Assembly (NCBI RefSeq): GCF_000191045.1
Contig: NC_015185.1
Span: 936,501-1,000,500 of the forward strand
Source: Desulfurobacterium thermolithotrophum DSM 11699
GTDB lineage: Bacteria; Aquificota; Aquificia; Desulfurobacteriales; Desulfurobacteriaceae
Length of the DNA: 64,000 nt
Reading direction: 5' to 3'
The notes beneath the pieces are model-generated. The model worked only from the letters and a program-made list of their open reading frames with translations, did no database searches and was not told where the DNA came from. Below, in pieces: positions 10,315 to 18,637 of this stretch; the first letter of the stretch is position 1, and each line of letters begins with the position of its first letter. The translations under genes were made by a program, and so were the position numbers.

Positions 10315-10521
10315 ATGAAAAAGGGCATTCATCCAGAATACAAGGAAACAAGGATTGTTTGTGCCTGTGGTAACACTTGGGTTACAAGATCCACAAAATT
10401 TCCTGAGATTAAAGTTGAAGTTTGCAACCAGTGTCATCCATTCTTTACCGGTAGCCAAAAGCAAAAAGCTGTAAGGGGTAGAGTAGAGAAGTTTATGGCT
10501 AAGTACGGAGATAAGTATTAA
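10315..10521 (+). CDS. rpmE: 50S ribosomal protein L31, zinc form
   Basis: A 68-residue L31. Four cysteines (CACG at 17-19 region and CNQC near 39-42) mark the zinc-binding, C+ type of L31 rather than the zinc-free paralogue. GGAGG lies 7 bp before the ATG, and a good promoter is 47 bp upstream. The stop overlaps the next gene's start as TAATG, so the ThyX-like gene is translationally coupled to a highly expressed ribosomal protein. Confidence 0.95.
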
Positions 10522-10919
10522 TGGGAATTGTCCTTTTATCTCAGACAGAAAATATGCTTAAGGTGATAGCTACTGCAGCTCGGGTTTGTTATTCCGGGCT
10601 GCCTTTAAAAGAGCTTTTATCTAAATATTCTGAAGAGGAAGATAGGAAGTTAATAGAGCGTGTTGTAGGAATGGGGCATCTTTCTGTAGTTGAGCATGGA
10701 GTTATGACTTTCAAAGTTGATAGTTCCTACAAAGACGAACTTTTCAAGATAATGATAGATAAACCGTTTCTTAAAATATCCGATATAGGCAACGGTTTTA
10801 TTGTTTCTCTAAACTTAAGAACAATTTTAGAATTGATATCGGAAAAACCTAACTTAAGATTTACAAAAAAAATTTCAAAGTTTCTTCCTGATTTTCTTTT
10901 TAGACAGAAAAATCAATAG
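10521..10919 (+). CDS. Shortened ThyX-like protein lacking the signature motif
   Basis: A 132-residue protein that resembles the flavin-dependent thymidylate synthase ThyX at both ends: AARVCYSG and MGHLSVVEHGVMTFKVD at the N-terminus, and GNGFIVSLNLRTILEL matching the family's later SLNARSL region. The stretch between them, which in ThyX holds RHRxxSxNexSxRY and most of the FAD/dUMP site, is missing. Real ThyX is about 210-250 residues. The reading frame is intact, so this is a stable shortened form, not an obvious frameshift. It probably is not a catalytic thymidylate synthase. Tail overlaps the convergent gene by 20 bp. Confidence 0.6.
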   Translation: MGIVLLSQTENMLKVIATAARVCYSGLPLKELLSKYSEEEDRKLIERVVGMGHLSVVEHGVMTFKVDSSYKDELFKIMIDKPFLKISDIGNGFIVSLNLRTILELISEKPNLRFTKKISKFLPDFLFRQKNQ

Positions 10920-11955
10920 AAAATCCGGTTTCTAAATTTTGAAATAACTTTTTCCTCTTTTCTTCAAGACCTCTTTTTCCTTCTCTAAAAACAACAGAAA
11001 CAAGATTGAGACCTTCTTCTTTAAAAAAAGTTTTTAACTCATTTAGATTGTTTTTAAATAAGTCTAAGAGCTTTTTGTTCTCAGCAACTATTTCTAACAT
11101 TATGCTTTCATTTAAGAGCATAATAAAAATTCCTAAAGTTCCAAGTTTTGTCTTTAACTCAATGAAAACAGAATGAGGATCACTCTCGTCCTCTGCTAGT
11201 ACCATATAAACATTTCCTTTAAAGTTATCTGTAAAGAAAAATGGAAATGCAATAATACTTCCTAAAATAAAAAGGGAATGAATAGAAATCAAGGTATTTA
11301 TTGCATCTTTTATATTTTTTTGTGTGATAGATTGTGGAAGTTTTTCTTTTACTTCTTGGTATAGCTCGTCTTCTAAAAGAAGAAGAGCAACAAAAATGGA
11401 ATAAGGAGAAAGAAGTTTTGAAAGTATTCCTGACTTAAACGATTCTGAAAACTGTTTAAATTCCTCAAGAAGTTCTTTATAGTGAACAGAAATATAGGTA
11501 TAGAGAGCGTTCATAATTTCTGGTTTTTTAAGAATTTCTCCTAAGAGAAGGAGCTTTTCCGAAGAAAAAGATGGAAGAACAAGTCTGAGCTTACTTATGA
11601 AGTTAGAAAGTATTTCTTCCTTTTTTACAAAAGAAAGCTCAATTCGAGGATATATCGATTTTAGTCTAAAAAGGAGCTCTTCTCCAATAGAAAATTCTCT
11701 ATCTACTTCAACATCAGCTATAAGGAGTAGGTCTCCTACTCTAAGCTTTACCTTTCCTTCAGGGGTAAATCCTTCAAAAACTGCTTTTATAAGAGTAGAC
11801 TGAAGATCTTCTCCTAAATCTTTTTTTGATTGTCCAGAGGTTATGGTTGATAAAAGTTTTTTCATATCATGATAAGAAAAGTTTTCAAGCTTAAAGGGTA
11901 AATCTTTTGAAACTGCTTCTACAGGAATTATTCCTTCAATTCGTCTTATTTCCAT
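10900..11955 (-). CDS. Hypothetical protein with FliK-like C-terminal region
   Basis: A 351-residue protein I cannot name firmly. Residues about 60-110 (VGDLLLIADVEVDREFSIGEELLFRLKS) resemble the beta domain of flagellar hook-length proteins. The last third (LGTLGIFIMLLNESIMLEIVAENKKLLDLF, then NLNELKTFFKEEGLNLVSVVF) has the pattern of the FliK C-terminal export-switch domain. No flagellar genes are next to it; it precedes nothing else in its direction and lies after cysK with an 8-bp gap. The assignment rests on pattern only. Confidence 0.4.
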   Translation of the reverse strand: MEIRRIEGIIPVEAVSKDLPFKLENFSYHDMKKLLSTITSGQSKKDLGEDLQSTLIKAVFEGFTPEGKVKLRVGDLLLIADVEVDREFSIGEELLFRLKSIYPRIELSFVKKEEILSNFISKLRLVLPSFSSEKLLLLGEILKKPEIMNALYTYISVHYKELLEEFKQFSESFKSGILSKLLSPYSIFVALLLLEDELYQEVKEKLPQSITQKNIKDAINTLISIHSLFILGSIIAFPFFFTDNFKGNVYMVLAEDESDPHSVFIELKTKLGTLGIFIMLLNESIMLEIVAENKKLLDLFKNNLNELKTFFKEEGLNLVSVVFREGKRGLEEKRKKLFQNLETGFSIDFSV

Positions 11956-11963
11956 TTTTATCC

Positions 11964-12875
11964 CTAATCAAAAAGGTCTGTACTAAGGTATCTTTCTCCT
12001 GTATCTGGAAGAATAGTAACTACTCTTTTTTTCTTTCCAGTTTCTTTTGCAACCTTAATGGCTACTCTCACATTTGCTCCTGCTGATATACCTGAAAGAA
12101 TCCCAAACCGTGATGCAAGAAGATTTGAATACTTCTTTGCCTCTTCAAAGGAAACAGTTTCTACTTTATCTATAAGTTCAACATCTAAAACCTTGGGTAT
12201 AAATCCAGCTCCTATCCCTTGAATTTTGTGCACTCCTGCAGGTTTTCCTGAGATAACTGCAGATGTATCTGGTTCAACTGCTACAAGAAGGCACTCTGGA
12301 TTTACTTCCTTAAACCTTTTGCCGATACCAGTTAATGTTCCTCCTGTTCCAACTCCTGCAACAAAAATTTCAGGTAAAACGCCCATTTGCTCTAAGATTT
12401 CAACAGCTGTTGTTTCATAGTGAATTAAAGGATTAACAGGATTTTCAAACTGTCTTGCGTGAAAGTACTTTTCAGGATCTTTTCTAACAAGTTCTTCTAC
12501 TTTTTTAACAGCTCCTGGTATTCCTTCTTCTGCTGGAGTAAGAATGAGCTCTGCACCGTAAGCTCTCAGTATTTTTTTTCTTTCTTCACTCATATTCTCA
12601 GGCATAACAATAATGCATTTATAACCTTTAGCTGCACAAACAAGTACAAGACCGATTCCTGTATTTCCACTTGTTGCCTCAATAACTGCTTTTTTTTGTG
12701 ACAACTCTCCTTTCTTCTCTGCATCTTCGATAATTGCAAGTGCAACTCTATCCTTAATTGAACCTCCAGGATTAAACATTTCAAGTTTGAGAAAGAGTTC
12801 CACACCCTCTATCTCTATTCTTAAAAGAGGTGTATTCCCTATATTTTCAAGAATAGACCTTGACAACATCTTCAT
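11964..12875 (-). CDS. cysK: Cysteine synthase (O-acetylserine sulfhydrylase)
   Basis: A 303-residue PLP enzyme of the beta family that makes cysteine from O-acetylserine and sulfide. Visible: FNPGGSIKDRVA with the Schiff-base lysine, the substrate loop EATSGNTGIGL, VGTGGTLTGIG phosphate-binding loop, and GISAGANV. AGAGGAG stands 7 bp before ATG 12875. The 5' end overlaps the Trm10-like gene by 29 bp. I cannot separate CysK from CysM by sequence alone. Confidence 0.92.
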   Translation of the reverse strand: MKMLSRSILENIGNTPLLRIEIEGVELFLKLEMFNPGGSIKDRVALAIIEDAEKKGELSQKKAVIEATSGNTGIGLVLVCAAKGYKCIIVMPENMSEERKKILRAYGAELILTPAEEGIPGAVKKVEELVRKDPEKYFHARQFENPVNPLIHYETTAVEILEQMGVLPEIFVAGVGTGGTLTGIGKRFKEVNPECLLVAVEPDTSAVISGKPAGVHKIQGIGAGFIPKVLDVELIDKVETVSFEEAKKYSNLLASRFGILSGISAGANVRVAIKVAKETGKKKRVVTILPDTGERYLSTDLFD

Positions 12876-13935
12876 TCTTTAACTCCTCTAATAAAAAGAT
12901 TTCTTTCTTCCTTTTAAGGATTTTACCTTCTACTTTTTCAAAAATAGTGTTTTTAAAGACAAAAAATCCACCAATATGTTTAGCTCCTTTCTTAAAGTGA
13001 AAGTCGGTAAGTTCAAATTCTTCTTTCCATTGCTTGTAAAGTTTTTCAGGAATTCCCCTTAAAATTTTTCCCTTTAACGAAAACCTTACTAAGTTCTTTT
13101 CCAATTCTTTTCTTAACCATTTTAACTTTGCAGTTCTTGTAATATTTTGCCTTACAGCCTCAGATAGAGAAATGTCTTCAGTTAAGTACTGACAAACAAT
13201 CTTAACGATATCGTTTATCCTATCTGGTACAAGCTCTATACTTCCTTTATAAGAGATTTTTCTATGTTTAACATTTGGAAAAATCTCCTTAGTAGATCCT
13301 ATCATTCTCTCACCGCTATCAACAATACCACCAACAACAATTAGGGTTTGAGGAGTAATTTCTTCATGAGTAAAGTCCTTATTTCCGTAAGGGTCAAGAA
13401 CTATAATTTCTTTTTGTTCAGGTTTATCAAGAATAGAAAAAGGGATGTAAGGAGTAAAAAATTTTTCAAGTTCCTTTCTTGCTTCATTACTAACAGAAGT
13501 AAGGACAAAGTTTTCTGGAGTAAAGAAGTCTTTCACCACGCCATAAGTTATCTCAATCTGATTTAGAAGACTTTTTTTCTCTCTTGGTAAAAGTTTGTTA
13601 TAAAAGGAAAGATCCACAGCAATTAAAGGGTATTCAAAATCAATATCACTAAAGTTTACAATACCTTTTCTTCCTCTTACTATTGCTGAATCAGGCTTTT
13701 CATCTCCCATAAAAGCAAGAAGCTTTATTTCGTAACATTCATCTACTTTACATCCTGGAAGTAGTTCTTCTCCTATTTCTTTTTCAGTAAAAATTCCAAA
13801 TTTTCCTTTCACTAAACCATAAGCAATACGGTTAAAAATATCGCCTCTTTTTGGGTGAAAAAGCAATTTTGGTCTTCTAAAACCCGCTTCTTTCAACCTA
13901 GTAGCAACCAATTCTTTCGGTTTTTTAAATCTCAT
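12847..13935 (-). CDS. Trm10-like SPOUT tRNA methyltransferase
   Basis: A 362-residue protein. Its middle third matches the pattern of archaeal Trm10 (m1G/m1A at tRNA position 9): EIIVLDPYGNKDFT, then TLIVVGGIVDSGERM, then ISYKGSIELVPDRINDIVKIV, which in SPOUT enzymes forms the knotted SAM site. The N-terminal 150 and C-terminal 70 residues are less familiar; the tail (HIGGFFVFKNTIFEKVEGKIL) could be a nucleic-acid-binding module. I prefer ATG 13935 over GTG 13950. Trm10-type proteins are characteristic of archaea and eukaryotes, so presence in a bacterium suggests lateral transfer. Confidence 0.55.
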   Translation of the reverse strand: MRFKKPKELVATRLKEAGFRRPKLLFHPKRGDIFNRIAYGLVKGKFGIFTEKEIGEELLPGCKVDECYEIKLLAFMGDEKPDSAIVRGRKGIVNFSDIDFEYPLIAVDLSFYNKLLPREKKSLLNQIEITYGVVKDFFTPENFVLTSVSNEARKELEKFFTPYIPFSILDKPEQKEIIVLDPYGNKDFTHEEITPQTLIVVGGIVDSGERMIGSTKEIFPNVKHRKISYKGSIELVPDRINDIVKIVCQYLTEDISLSEAVRQNITRTAKLKWLRKELEKNLVRFSLKGKILRGIPEKLYKQWKEEFELTDFHFKKGAKHIGGFFVFKNTIFEKVEGKILKRKKEIFLLEELKNEDVVKVYS

Positions 13936-14055
13936 GTTTTTAACTTCCACCAGTAACTAATTTTTCTAAACTATGTTATATTGTATCCTAAACAACGATG
14001 ATTTATTTATACTAGCAATATTACAATTTGTTAGTACTTCTCATAGGAGAAAAGT

Positions 14056-15231
14056 ATGAAGAAAGGAATAGCAGAAGTTCCGGGAATAGCCTGTGGTACA
14101 GGTTTTGGAGGGATTAAGAGAACGGAAAAAAAAGTTGATAGACCTGATACACTTGTTGTAGTTACAGATGAGCCTTCAAATTTTGCTGCTGTGTTTACAA
14201 CAAACGATATTCAAGCAGCTCCAGTAAAGTTTTCAAAGTCTTTAAAAGGAAAAATTAATGGTATTGTGGCAAATAGCGGTAATGCTAATGCCTGTACTGG
14301 AGAACAGGGATTAAAAGATGCAGAGGAAATGGCAAGGATAGTATCTAAGCTTACTGGAAAGGAAAAGCCATTTTTAGTGGCCTCAACAGGAGTAATTGGT
14401 GAACCTCTTCCAATGGATAGAGTAAAAAAGGGAATAGAGGAAGCAGTTAAAAACCTTGGAAAAGCAAAGGGAGAAGAACCAGCAAGAGCAATAATGACAA
14501 CAGATACTTTTCCAAAAACTGCTTTTAGAGAAGGTAATGGTTTTGTTATAGGTGGAATTGCAAAAGGTGCTGGAATGATAGATCCTTCAATGGCGACAAT
14601 GCTTTCATTTGTTGCAACAGATGCTAAAGTAAGTAGTGAAATGCTTCAAAGAGCTCTAAAAGAAGCAGTAGACGTTTCTTTTAATGCAATTACAGTCGAT
14701 GGAGATATGAGTACAAACGACTGCGTATTTATCTTATCAACAGGAAAGTCTGAGAAAATAATTGATGACTCAAACTATGAAGAGTTTAAAGAAGTCTTAA
14801 CAGCGGTTCTTAAAGAACTTGCTTACCAAATAGTCAAAGATGGTGAAGGAGCAACAAAAGTAGCTAGAATTGTTGTTAAAGGGGCAAAAACTACAAAACA
14901 AGCAAGAGCAATTGCAAGAAAGATTGCACTCTCTCCTCTTGTTAAAACTGCTATTTTTGGTTGCGATCCTAACTGGGGAAGAATAATTGCCGCAGCTGGA
15001 GCAGCATCAACGGGAATAGAAGAAGAAAAAGTTGAACTTTACATAGGAAACTACCTTCTCTTCAAAGGTAAAAGAACAGATTTCATAGAAGAAGAAGTTT
15101 TCAAGTATTTAAAAGAAAATGACGAAATTGTTATTAAACTTTATCTCAATCTTGGGAACCACTCTTTTGAATATCTAACTTGTGACTTAACGTACGACTA
15201 CGTAAAAATAAATGCAGAATATAGAACTTAA
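14056..15231 (+). CDS. argJ: Bifunctional ornithine acetyltransferase / N-acetylglutamate synthase
   Basis: A 391-residue ArgJ, which recycles the acetyl group in arginine synthesis. Visible: VANSGNANACTGEQG, STGVIGEPLPMD, and the autoproteolysis site GMIDPSMATML, where the bond before the Thr is cut to give alpha and beta chains. A strong AGGAG lies 7 bp before the ATG. coaX follows directly with one spacer base. The 105-bp upstream gap is shared with the divergent Trm10-like gene and must hold both promoters; I could not place clear boxes. Confidence 0.95.
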   Translation: MKKGIAEVPGIACGTGFGGIKRTEKKVDRPDTLVVVTDEPSNFAAVFTTNDIQAAPVKFSKSLKGKINGIVANSGNANACTGEQGLKDAEEMARIVSKLTGKEKPFLVASTGVIGEPLPMDRVKKGIEEAVKNLGKAKGEEPARAIMTTDTFPKTAFREGNGFVIGGIAKGAGMIDPSMATMLSFVATDAKVSSEMLQRALKEAVDVSFNAITVDGDMSTNDCVFILSTGKSEKIIDDSNYEEFKEVLTAVLKELAYQIVKDGEGATKVARIVVKGAKTTKQARAIARKIALSPLVKTAIFGCDPNWGRIIAAAGAASTGIEEEKVELYIGNYLLFKGKRTDFIEEEVFKYLKENDEIVIKLYLNLGNHSFEYLTCDLTYDYVKINAEYRT

Positions 15232-16929: not shown

Positions 16930-17862
16930 ATGTTGGTAGTTAAGTTTGAGTATCCAGATACAGGAAAAAGTGGACTAGCAAAAACTAGTCAGTTAGAAGA
17001 TCTAAAGTATGGAGATAGAGTGATTGTAAAAACAGATAGAAGTGAAGAGTTAGTGAAGGTTTTAAATATTTATTCTGTAGATGAAACCTTTTTGCAAAAA
17101 CTTGGAGTTGATAAAGAGAGTATCTTTGAAGTTTTAAGAAAACCTACCGAGGAAGATCTTAATAAATTCATTGAAAACCAATTGTTTGTAGTTGAAGCAT
17201 TAAAGATATGCAAAGAAAAGGTAAAAAAGCACGAGCTTCCGATGAAACTTGTAAAAGCATACACTACTTTAAATAGGGAAAGAATAGTTTTTTACTTTAC
17301 AGCTGAATCAAGAGTCGATTTTAGACAATTAGTTAGAGATCTTGCAGCCCATTTTAAAACAAGAATCGAACTAAGGCAGATTGGAGTTAGAGATGAAGTC
17401 AAAATGATAGGTGCTGTTGGAATGTGTGGAAGAGTTTGCTGTTGTAAAGATTTCCTTGAATGTTTTGATTCTGTTTCCCTTACTCTTGCAAGACTCCAAG
17501 GACTCCCACCAAATCCTGCAAAACTTTCTGGTACCTGTGGAAGACTCATGTGTTGTCTTAAATTTGAAGAGGGAAATTACTACATAAAGAAGTTTTTACC
17601 TGATGTCGGAGAAACTATTGAAACTCCTGAAGGAAAAGGAACTGTCATTGACATAAGCGTTCCATTAGAGATAATGACTGTTGAATTAGAAACAGGAGGA
17701 AGGAAAAAGTTTTCAATAAGACACTTTGTGACAGAAGAACAGTGGAATGAATATCTTGAAAGATTAAAAGAAAAGTATGATGATAGGTTTAAGTGCTTTT
17801 TAAAATCAGGAGTTACAAATGACGATGAAGATAGTGAAAGAACTGCAGAGTCCTTTGAATAA
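16930..17862 (+). CDS. PSP1-domain protein (RicT/YaaT family)
   Basis: A 310-residue protein with the PSP1 C-terminal domain. Cysteine-rich GMCGRVCCCKDF and GTCGRLMCCLKFE are the hallmark that binds iron-sulfur clusters in Bacillus RicT, where the RicAFT complex affects RNase Y maturation of transcripts. I prefer ATG 16930 (MLVVKFEYP) because GGAG lies 6 bp upstream; the TTG at 16918 has none. The following RlmN-like gene starts inside its last codons. Confidence 0.85.
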   Translation: MLVVKFEYPDTGKSGLAKTSQLEDLKYGDRVIVKTDRSEELVKVLNIYSVDETFLQKLGVDKESIFEVLRKPTEEDLNKFIENQLFVVEALKICKEKVKKHELPMKLVKAYTTLNRERIVFYFTAESRVDFRQLVRDLAAHFKTRIELRQIGVRDEVKMIGAVGMCGRVCCCKDFLECFDSVSLTLARLQGLPPNPAKLSGTCGRLMCCLKFEEGNYYIKKFLPDVGETIETPEGKGTVIDISVPLEIMTVELETGGRKKFSIRHFVTEEQWNEYLERLKEKYDDRFKCFLKSGVTNDDEDSERTAESFE

Positions 17863-18637
17863 GCTTTTTGTATACGAAACAGACGATGGCTATAAGGTAG
17901 AATCTGTTTTTTATAAAGGGGAAAGACTTTGCATTTCTACTCAAGTTGGTTGTCCTATAGGGTGTATCTTCTGTGCTTCTGGAAGTAAAGGTTTTTTTAG
18001 AAATCTTACTTTTGCTGAAATAGTAACTCAATATGAGCTTTTGAGAGATATTTTGCCAATAAAAGGTATAGCTATTGCAGGAATTGGAGAACCTGCACTT
18101 AACATTTCTAATGTAGAGAAGGCAGTTAACTATTTTAGAAACGAAGGATTGAAAGTAACGATAAGTACAGCTGGTTATCCTCTTGAAAACTTTAAAAAAC
18201 TTATAAGACTTAACCACAACGGACTTACTCTTTCTGTGCATGGAATTCTTAATAAGACAAGAGAAAAAATATTTAAGAAAAAGGAAAATTTAGAAGAATT
18301 ACTAAATGCAGTAGATGAACATCTTTCTGAATCTTCTTCTTCTCGTAGAAAGAAGTTTCAGCTCGGATATCTACTTATAAAGGATTTAAATGATGATCTT
18401 GAAAATCTAAGGCTTCTTGGAGAGCTTGCAAAAAAATATAGGTTTACTGTTATGCTCATGATGTACAACAAAGTCGATGGTTTTGATCTTGAACCTGTTA
18501 CAAAGGATGAGTATGAAAAAGCATTCCTCTTTTTAAGAGAAATGGGAGTAAGGGTAACACTCAGCAACAGGTTCAGGATAGATAAATTAGGTGGTTGTGG
18601 AACTCTGACGGTCGGAAGGAGGATAGAATGTTCGTAA
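17819..18637 (+). CDS. Short RlmN/Cfr-like radical SAM methyltransferase
   Basis: A 272-residue radical SAM protein. The motif CPIGCIFCASGSKGFFRNLTFAEIV matches RlmN (in pieces), and the two extra cysteines used in methyl transfer appear retained: one in RLCISTQVGC and one in GGCGTL near the C-terminus. RlmN methylates A2503 of 23S rRNA and A37 of tRNA. RlmN proteins are usually 340-370 residues; the N-terminal accessory domain of about 80-90 residues is absent here. AGGAG stands 7 bp before ATG 17819. A full-length RlmN may exist elsewhere, so specificity is open. Confidence 0.75.
   Translation: MTMKIVKELQSPLNKLFVYETDDGYKVESVFYKGERLCISTQVGCPIGCIFCASGSKGFFRNLTFAEIVTQYELLRDILPIKGIAIAGIGEPALNISNVEKAVNYFRNEGLKVTISTAGYPLENFKKLIRLNHNGLTLSVHGILNKTREKIFKKKENLEELLNAVDEHLSESSSSRRKKFQLGYLLIKDLNDDLENLRLLGELAKKYRFTVMLMMYNKVDGFDLEPVTKDEYEKAFLFLREMGVRVTLSNRFRIDKLGGCGTLTVGRRIECS

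Follow-up and report, generated by a model that had tools for sequence, protein, structure and literature searches.

An archaeal-type Trm10 homologue conserved in the bacterial order Desulfurobacteriales

Introduction

Trm10 has been described as an archaeal and eukaryotic methyltransferase (PMC6410153, PMC7293042). Among the archaeal species examined in one study, it occurred only in Thermococci and Thermoprotei (PMC12247713). One analysis divided the branch of m1G-forming enzymes into groups found in bacteria only and groups found only in archaea and eukaryotes, Trm10 and COG2428 being among the latter (PMC1829167), and according to a review m1R9 is not found in bacteria (PMC10941002). Our literature search, judged largely from titles and abstracts, found no report of a bacterial Trm10 or of bacterial m1A9 or m1G9. 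An open reading frame of the heat-loving vent bacterium Desulfurobacterium thermolithotrophum, located in the 64,000-nucleotide stretch of DNA analysed here (the window), was nevertheless proposed in an initial annotation to encode an archaeal-type Trm10-like methyltransferase. Here we ask whether this gene is a Trm10 gene, what its product would do, and how it came to be in a bacterium.

Results

The gene product belongs to the Trm10 family

The genome of D. thermolithotrophum is a single contig of 1,541,968 bases. The trm10-like gene (12847..13935, minus strand) encodes 362 amino acids, and its assignment draws on NCBIfam Trm10 models, Trm10 chains in the PDB and a structural model. The frame is complete, with the same ends as in the initial annotation, from an ATG at 13935 to a TGA stop codon at 12847-12849. 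An upstream GTG at 13950 is disfavoured as the start, since the family members align from the ATG onwards.

Only two NCBIfam models matched the protein at E <= 1, and both are Trm10 models: NF041071 (Thermoproteota-type, E 3.1e-36) and NF041140 (Thermococcales-type, E 1.2e-30). The scores of 124.6 and 106.9 bits missed the equivalog cut-offs of 330 and 550, respectively, and thus the protein was filed as a Trm10 in the wide sense, in neither of the named archaeal subgroups. When the PDB was searched with phmmer, the best sequence match was Trm10 of Thermococcus kodakarensis (6ems, 2.3e-21), and Trm10 of Sulfolobus acidocaldarius (5a7y) matched at 1e-15. With a 20-sequence profile these values became 2.1e-26 and 3.1e-23. 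The match to eukaryotic Trm10 (4fmw) was much weaker, with E 0.18 for the single sequence and 0.0033 for the profile. Over the core, the protein is 28.2% identical to T. kodakarensis Trm10 (TkTrm10) and 28.7% to S. acidocaldarius Trm10 (SaTrm10), while these two are 31.7% identical to each other.

An AlphaFold2 model was built from a 12-sequence alignment (pLDDT 87.9, pTM 0.84) and compared with known structures by VIA-align 2. The top match was SaTrm10 (5a7y_B; Z 21.4, 273 residues, rmsd 3.3, 22% identity), which covered residues 3..322 of the 362 in the model. Chains of TkTrm10 followed with Z 18.7-20.8, eukaryotic Trm10 with about 16-17 and recent Trm10-tRNA complexes with 13.1. Other SPOUT enzymes, including bacterial ones, reached about 11, and no bacterial SPOUT enzyme stood above the Trm10 chains in the structural match list. 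The open reading frame therefore encodes a Trm10 homologue of the archaeal type, and the resemblance is far beyond chance. This bears out the proposal of the initial annotation: a closer bacterial SPOUT clade was looked for with NCBIfam, PDB, Foldseek and VIA-align 2 and none was found, and by sequence the archaeal Trm10 enzymes are the nearest kin.

The model shows the three-part architecture of archaeal Trm10, with an N-terminal domain, a SPOUT core and a C-terminal extension. The N-terminal domain (residues 1-100; 13636..13935, minus strand) is of the archaeal Trm10 type, as judged from the alignments with 5a7y_B over model residues 3..322 and with 6ems over residues 2..259. The SPOUT methyltransferase core (residues 101-265; 13141..13635, minus strand) aligned with 6emu_B over residues 102..265 (Z 20.8). 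It is followed by a C-terminal helix and hairpin region (residues 266-322; 12970..13140, minus strand) that is common to archaeal Trm10, and here the alignment extends to residue 322 in 5a7y_B and to about 310-316 in TkTrm10. The initial annotation had suggested that the extra N- and C-terminal regions may define a different substrate. That they make the protein distinctive was not supported, since it superposes on SaTrm10 over residues 3-322 and, both in its N-terminal domain and in its C-terminal region as far as about residue 322, is an ordinary archaeal Trm10. Only the tail (residues 323-362; 12850..12969, minus strand) is extra. The tail is unmatched in TkTrm10 and SaTrm10. It occurs in most proteins of the host's own family (f1, 22 genomes searched) and is missing in the second, divergent family of the order (f2), whose proteins keep the active site.

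Two f1 loci vary in this part of the gene. In the metagenome-derived genome G012 (locus L032, G012:C35), the trm10 frame is interrupted at about residue 318-320 and the rest of the tail can be read in another frame; either the tail is decaying here or the sequence contains an error. In genome G009 (locus L020), the match to the Trm10-like protein stops at residue 339.

Active-site residues and predicted target

Six residues of TkTrm10 have been described: D104, E115, Q122, G202, D206 and D245 (PMC6410153). In our mapping, TkTrm10 residue numbers are the 6ems chain numbers less 20. The equivalents in the D. thermolithotrophum protein are D108, E119, Q126, G202, D206 and D238. All six were identical in every row of a 12-row alignment (A4; eight sequences from f1, two from f2, TkTrm10 and SaTrm10). 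In an alignment of 20 f1 sequences (A1), five of them were identical in 20/20 rows, and D108 was D in 19 rows and E in one. According to the 6ems alignment, the GGIVD motif (residues 202-206; 13318..13332, minus strand) corresponds to G202..D206 of TkTrm10 at the SAM site. D238, the equivalent of D245, is in the VPDRIN motif (residues 236-241; 13213..13230, minus strand), within the stretch GSIELVPDRIN (residues 231-241). The initial annotation had recognised an archaeal Trm10 pattern in these motifs, in agreement with the NCBIfam matches, the PDB matches and the Z of 21.4.

D245 was reported to be strongly conserved among archaeal enzymes that form m1A9 and to be lacking in those specific for m1G9, though it does not decide A/G specificity alone (PMC6410153). 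In the same study, exchanging a single carboxylate of TkTrm10 for N changed little (PMC6410153). A review instead names D206 of TkTrm10 and D184 of SaTrm10 as the m1A9-linked aspartate (PMC5372732). Both candidate aspartates are present in the D. thermolithotrophum protein, so the prediction of A9 is independent of which paper is right. Since the equivalent of D245 is kept and is not the sole determinant, A9 is the predicted and likeliest target, and G9 may be methylated as well.

The two characterised archaeal enzymes serve as references here. SaTrm10 (5a7y/5a7z/5a7t), which forms m1A9, has the same N-terminal, SPOUT and C-terminal parts and the six active-site residues, but its aligned part has no counterpart to the tail after about residue 322. 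TkTrm10 (TK0422; 6ems/6emt/6emu/6emv), which forms both m1A9 and m1G9, has the same active-site residues and leaves the last ~40 residues of the D. thermolithotrophum protein unmatched. Eukaryotic Trm10/TRMT10A and TRMT10C share the SPOUT core fold. At the position of D245, however, alignments show T in Trm10 of S. pombe and A in human TRMT10A, where the D. thermolithotrophum protein has D238.

Trm10 is found throughout the order

A search with the protein itself gave a match in 21 of the 22 f1 genomes. With the NCBIfam model, 23 of the 24 genomes of the order matched, including all 17 with at least 90% completeness and at most 5% contamination. G014, the sole genome that did not match, is 83% complete and in 300 contigs. 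The gene spans eight genera and both families of the order. A control search was made on 14 well-known genomes, in which the NCBIfam Trm10 model matched S. acidocaldarius only.

In the phylum, profile A1 matched 23 of 136 genomes, all of them Desulfurobacteriales. The initial annotation had remarked that bacteria mostly lack this family, and with this profile Trm10 was indeed absent from 367 other bacterial genomes, namely 112 Aquificota genomes outside the order and 255 outside the phylum (23/391 matched overall in the wider sample; G160, G307, G187 and G330, among the genomes outside the phylum, are labelled as the same domain). Two further searches in other phyla, of 2 and 9 genomes with no positive control among them, also gave no Trm10 match. 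A scan of genome contigs with A1 found 11 loci, all in Desulfurobacterium, Thermovibrio or Desulfurobacteriaceae, but its patterns are strict, missing f2 and all archaeal Trm10, and thus the scan is no proof of absence elsewhere.

Alternative functions

With about 28% core identity and both equivalog cut-offs missed, the substrate is not assured by homology. The protein might therefore be a Trm10-fold enzyme whose tail helps to direct it to a changed substrate, be it rRNA, a protein or a different position in tRNA. The extra tail of ~40 residues in f1 would suit such a change, as would the low identity to characterised Trm10, and SFM1, a sister family, is an example of a switch to a protein substrate close to Trm10 among the SPOUT enzymes. 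However, the six active-site residues tested are all kept and the N-terminal domain architecture is retained. The f2 proteins have no tail yet an intact active site, indicating that the tail is not essential to the Trm10 family. We consider a changed substrate unlikely. That the protein is itself an SFM1-like (COG2428) arginine methyltransferase is far less probable still and was rejected by sequence, Foldseek and structural scores. The two share the SPOUT superfamily fold (Z 12.5), and the Pfam SFM1-like model (PF04252) gave a weak match (E 3.7e-5), but its 23.8 bits are under the gathering cut-off of 27, whereas the Trm10 models matched at 1e-30 or better. No SFM1 chain was among the PDB sequence matches at E <= 1, where Trm10 reached 2.3e-21. 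SFM1 was far under Trm10 in every comparison, including Z (against 21.4 for SaTrm10) and Foldseek (2.5e-3 against 1.5e-17 for SaTrm10).

Trm10 and TrmD both make m1G, and TRMT10C is an RNase P subunit (PMC10941002). Members of the Aquificaceae use the protein RNase P HARP (PMC10941002). The gene might thus be a stand-in for TrmD (m1G37), or its product a partner of a protein-only RNase P, like TRMT10C in animal mitochondria. The TrmD model TIGR00088 was not among the NCBIfam matches of the Trm10-like protein at E <= 1, and TrmD itself is present in the same genome (2.2e-88; C1:1408271-1408954) and in 20 of the 24 genomes of the order. RNase P RNA was found in 23 of these 24 genomes and HARP (PF08745) in none. 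Therefore, Trm10 neither replaces the m1G37 enzyme nor works with a HARP-type RNase P; both roles were rejected, and we give them hardly any credence.

Proposed role in tRNA modification

We are fairly confident that the gene is a working bacterial Trm10 of the archaeal type, a SAM-dependent enzyme that modifies purine 9 of tRNA by N1 methylation. The SPOUT enzyme would probably be monomeric and would bind tRNA by its N- and C-terminal domains. Methylation of N1, most likely of A9 and possibly also of G9, would keep position 9 from forming Watson-Crick pairs and make the tRNA core more stable, which in turn may help tRNA folding at high growth temperature.

The host has both predicted targets. 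Its genome contains 43 tRNA loci, which ARAGORN reads as 42 distinct tRNA sequences. The selenocysteine tRNA, which has an 8-bp acceptor stem, was set aside, and position 9 in the other 41 is A in 25, G in 14 and C in two (both tRNA-Glu). Purine 9 is common in tRNAs, and thus the abundance of A9 and G9 is neither a proof of Trm10 action nor specific to owners of Trm10. As for function, m1A9 and m1G9 have been suggested to support the 9-23-12 triple and the L shape (PMC5372735), and prevention of Watson-Crick pairs and D-arm folding are listed among their roles (PMC6313347).

Within Aquificota there is a precedent in the Aquifex-type Trm1 (PF02005), which likewise belongs to an archaeal/eukaryotic family unusual in bacteria; Aquifex aeolicus is described as exceptional among eubacteria in having it (PMC6313347). 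Trm1 is an unrelated enzyme that acts at position 26/27, and it occurs in Aquificota families without Trm10. Best matches at E <= 1e-40 were found in 60 of 64 genomes of family f3 and in 6 of 7 of family f5, and in none of the 41 genomes of family f4 or the 24 of the Trm10-owning order. Weaker PF02005 matches in f4 and/or the Trm10-owning order are confined to a short segment (some 80-90 positions in the listed rows), and we read them as other methyltransferases. Trm10 and archaeal-type Trm1 are thus complementary among Aquificota families, a correlation over few independent events. Family f4 has neither of them.

The find is of an enzyme of a familiar kind in a domain where it was not expected, a genuine bacterial branch with m1A9, and perhaps m1G9, as its predicted product. 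We tentatively suggest that a deep third prokaryotic lineage of Trm10 provides Desulfurobacteriales with m1A9, possibly accompanied by m1G9, and that within Aquificota this lineage and the archaeal-type Trm1 of the sister families were imported as alternatives, each stabilising the tRNA core at high temperature, a proposal that we hold at somewhat under even chances. If it is true, m1A9, a mark reported as not found in bacteria, occurs in a bacterial order, and the enzyme, probably together with its mark, would reach into a third domain of life through the bacterial lineage. The bacterial proteins would add distant sequences to the question of A9 versus G9 specificity, and culturable bacteria with a separate TrmD would be available for its study. 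The complementary spread of Trm10 and Trm1 makes interchangeable stabilisers of the tRNA core a testable idea.

Genomic context and origin

The cysK gene for cysteine synthase A (11964..12875, minus strand; TIGR01139, 6.6e-121) overlaps the 3' end of trm10 by 29 nt. It is directly downstream of trm10 in all 20 other f1 genomes that carry the gene, and the overlap is present in 19 of these loci; the twentieth has the broken trm10 frame. On the other side, argJ (14056..15231, plus strand; PF01960, 5e-142) is divergent from trm10, as in 17 of 20 f1 loci (some with a flank of 1.5 kb only). Two f2 loci have neighbours different from those in f1. No plasmid or viral match was found for trm10, and together with the fixed neighbourhood this led us to reject a recent mobile gene. 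It is a settled chromosomal gene.

The initial annotation considered transfer plausible on the grounds of shared hot habitats. A transfer from an archaeal-type lineage is indeed plausible, but our tree with two archaeal references gives neither donor nor direction. Its 26 rows include as references only TkTrm10, SaTrm10 and two eukaryotic sequences, with long branches. Eukaryotic Trm10 was split from the rest (100/100), while f1, f2, TkTrm10 and SaTrm10 were not separated, so that a phylogeny with archaeal Trm10, as the initial annotation had suggested, sets the eukaryotes apart and leaves bacteria, Thermococcus and Sulfolobus without an order. AU tests rejected none of the three groupings (p 0.449, 0.377 and 0.36). 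The direction from archaea to bacteria is suggested by the absence of the gene from the other bacteria tested, in a comparison with two archaeal sequences.

A recent transfer from a hyperthermophilic archaeon, in place of an old resident gene, would be in keeping with the shared hot habitat and with a family that is otherwise archaeal and eukaryotic. This would concern the origin and not the function of the gene, and we regard it as very unlikely. The gene is present in eight genera and both families and is fixed beside cysK in f1, and its core identity to both archaeal references is 28%, against 31.7% between the references. Since the gene spans the whole order, any transfer would be old and would predate the diversification of the order. 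The distance of the bacterial clade from TkTrm10 and from SaTrm10 is about the same as that between these two, which points to an old acquisition or old retention. From the sequences compared, an old acquisition fits better than a recent one. In the proposed history, the ancestor of Desulfurobacteriales would have received the gene from an archaeal-type lineage, or retained it, and its descendants would have kept it.

Other genes of the window

Three further genes of the window deserve a remark. A radical SAM protein of 272 aa (17819-18637, plus strand) is closest to RlmN (TIGR00048, 4.9e-37; 127.7 bits against a cut-off of 290). It matches the model only from position 82 and thus lacks the N-terminal part of RlmN. 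In the trm10 gene row, cysK is followed directly by a gene for a FliK-like protein (10900-11955, minus strand; Flg_hook 3e-06, just under the cut-off), which adjoins cysK in 16 of 20 f1 loci. An open reading frame of 132 aa (10521-10919, plus strand) matches only the N-terminal third of ThyX, through its residues 5-67 (PF02511, 1.5e-11; TIGR02170 under cut-off). A frame of similar size (127-134 aa) is in the same place in eight other f1 loci, which suggests a short, conserved ThyX-like protein and not a random fragment.
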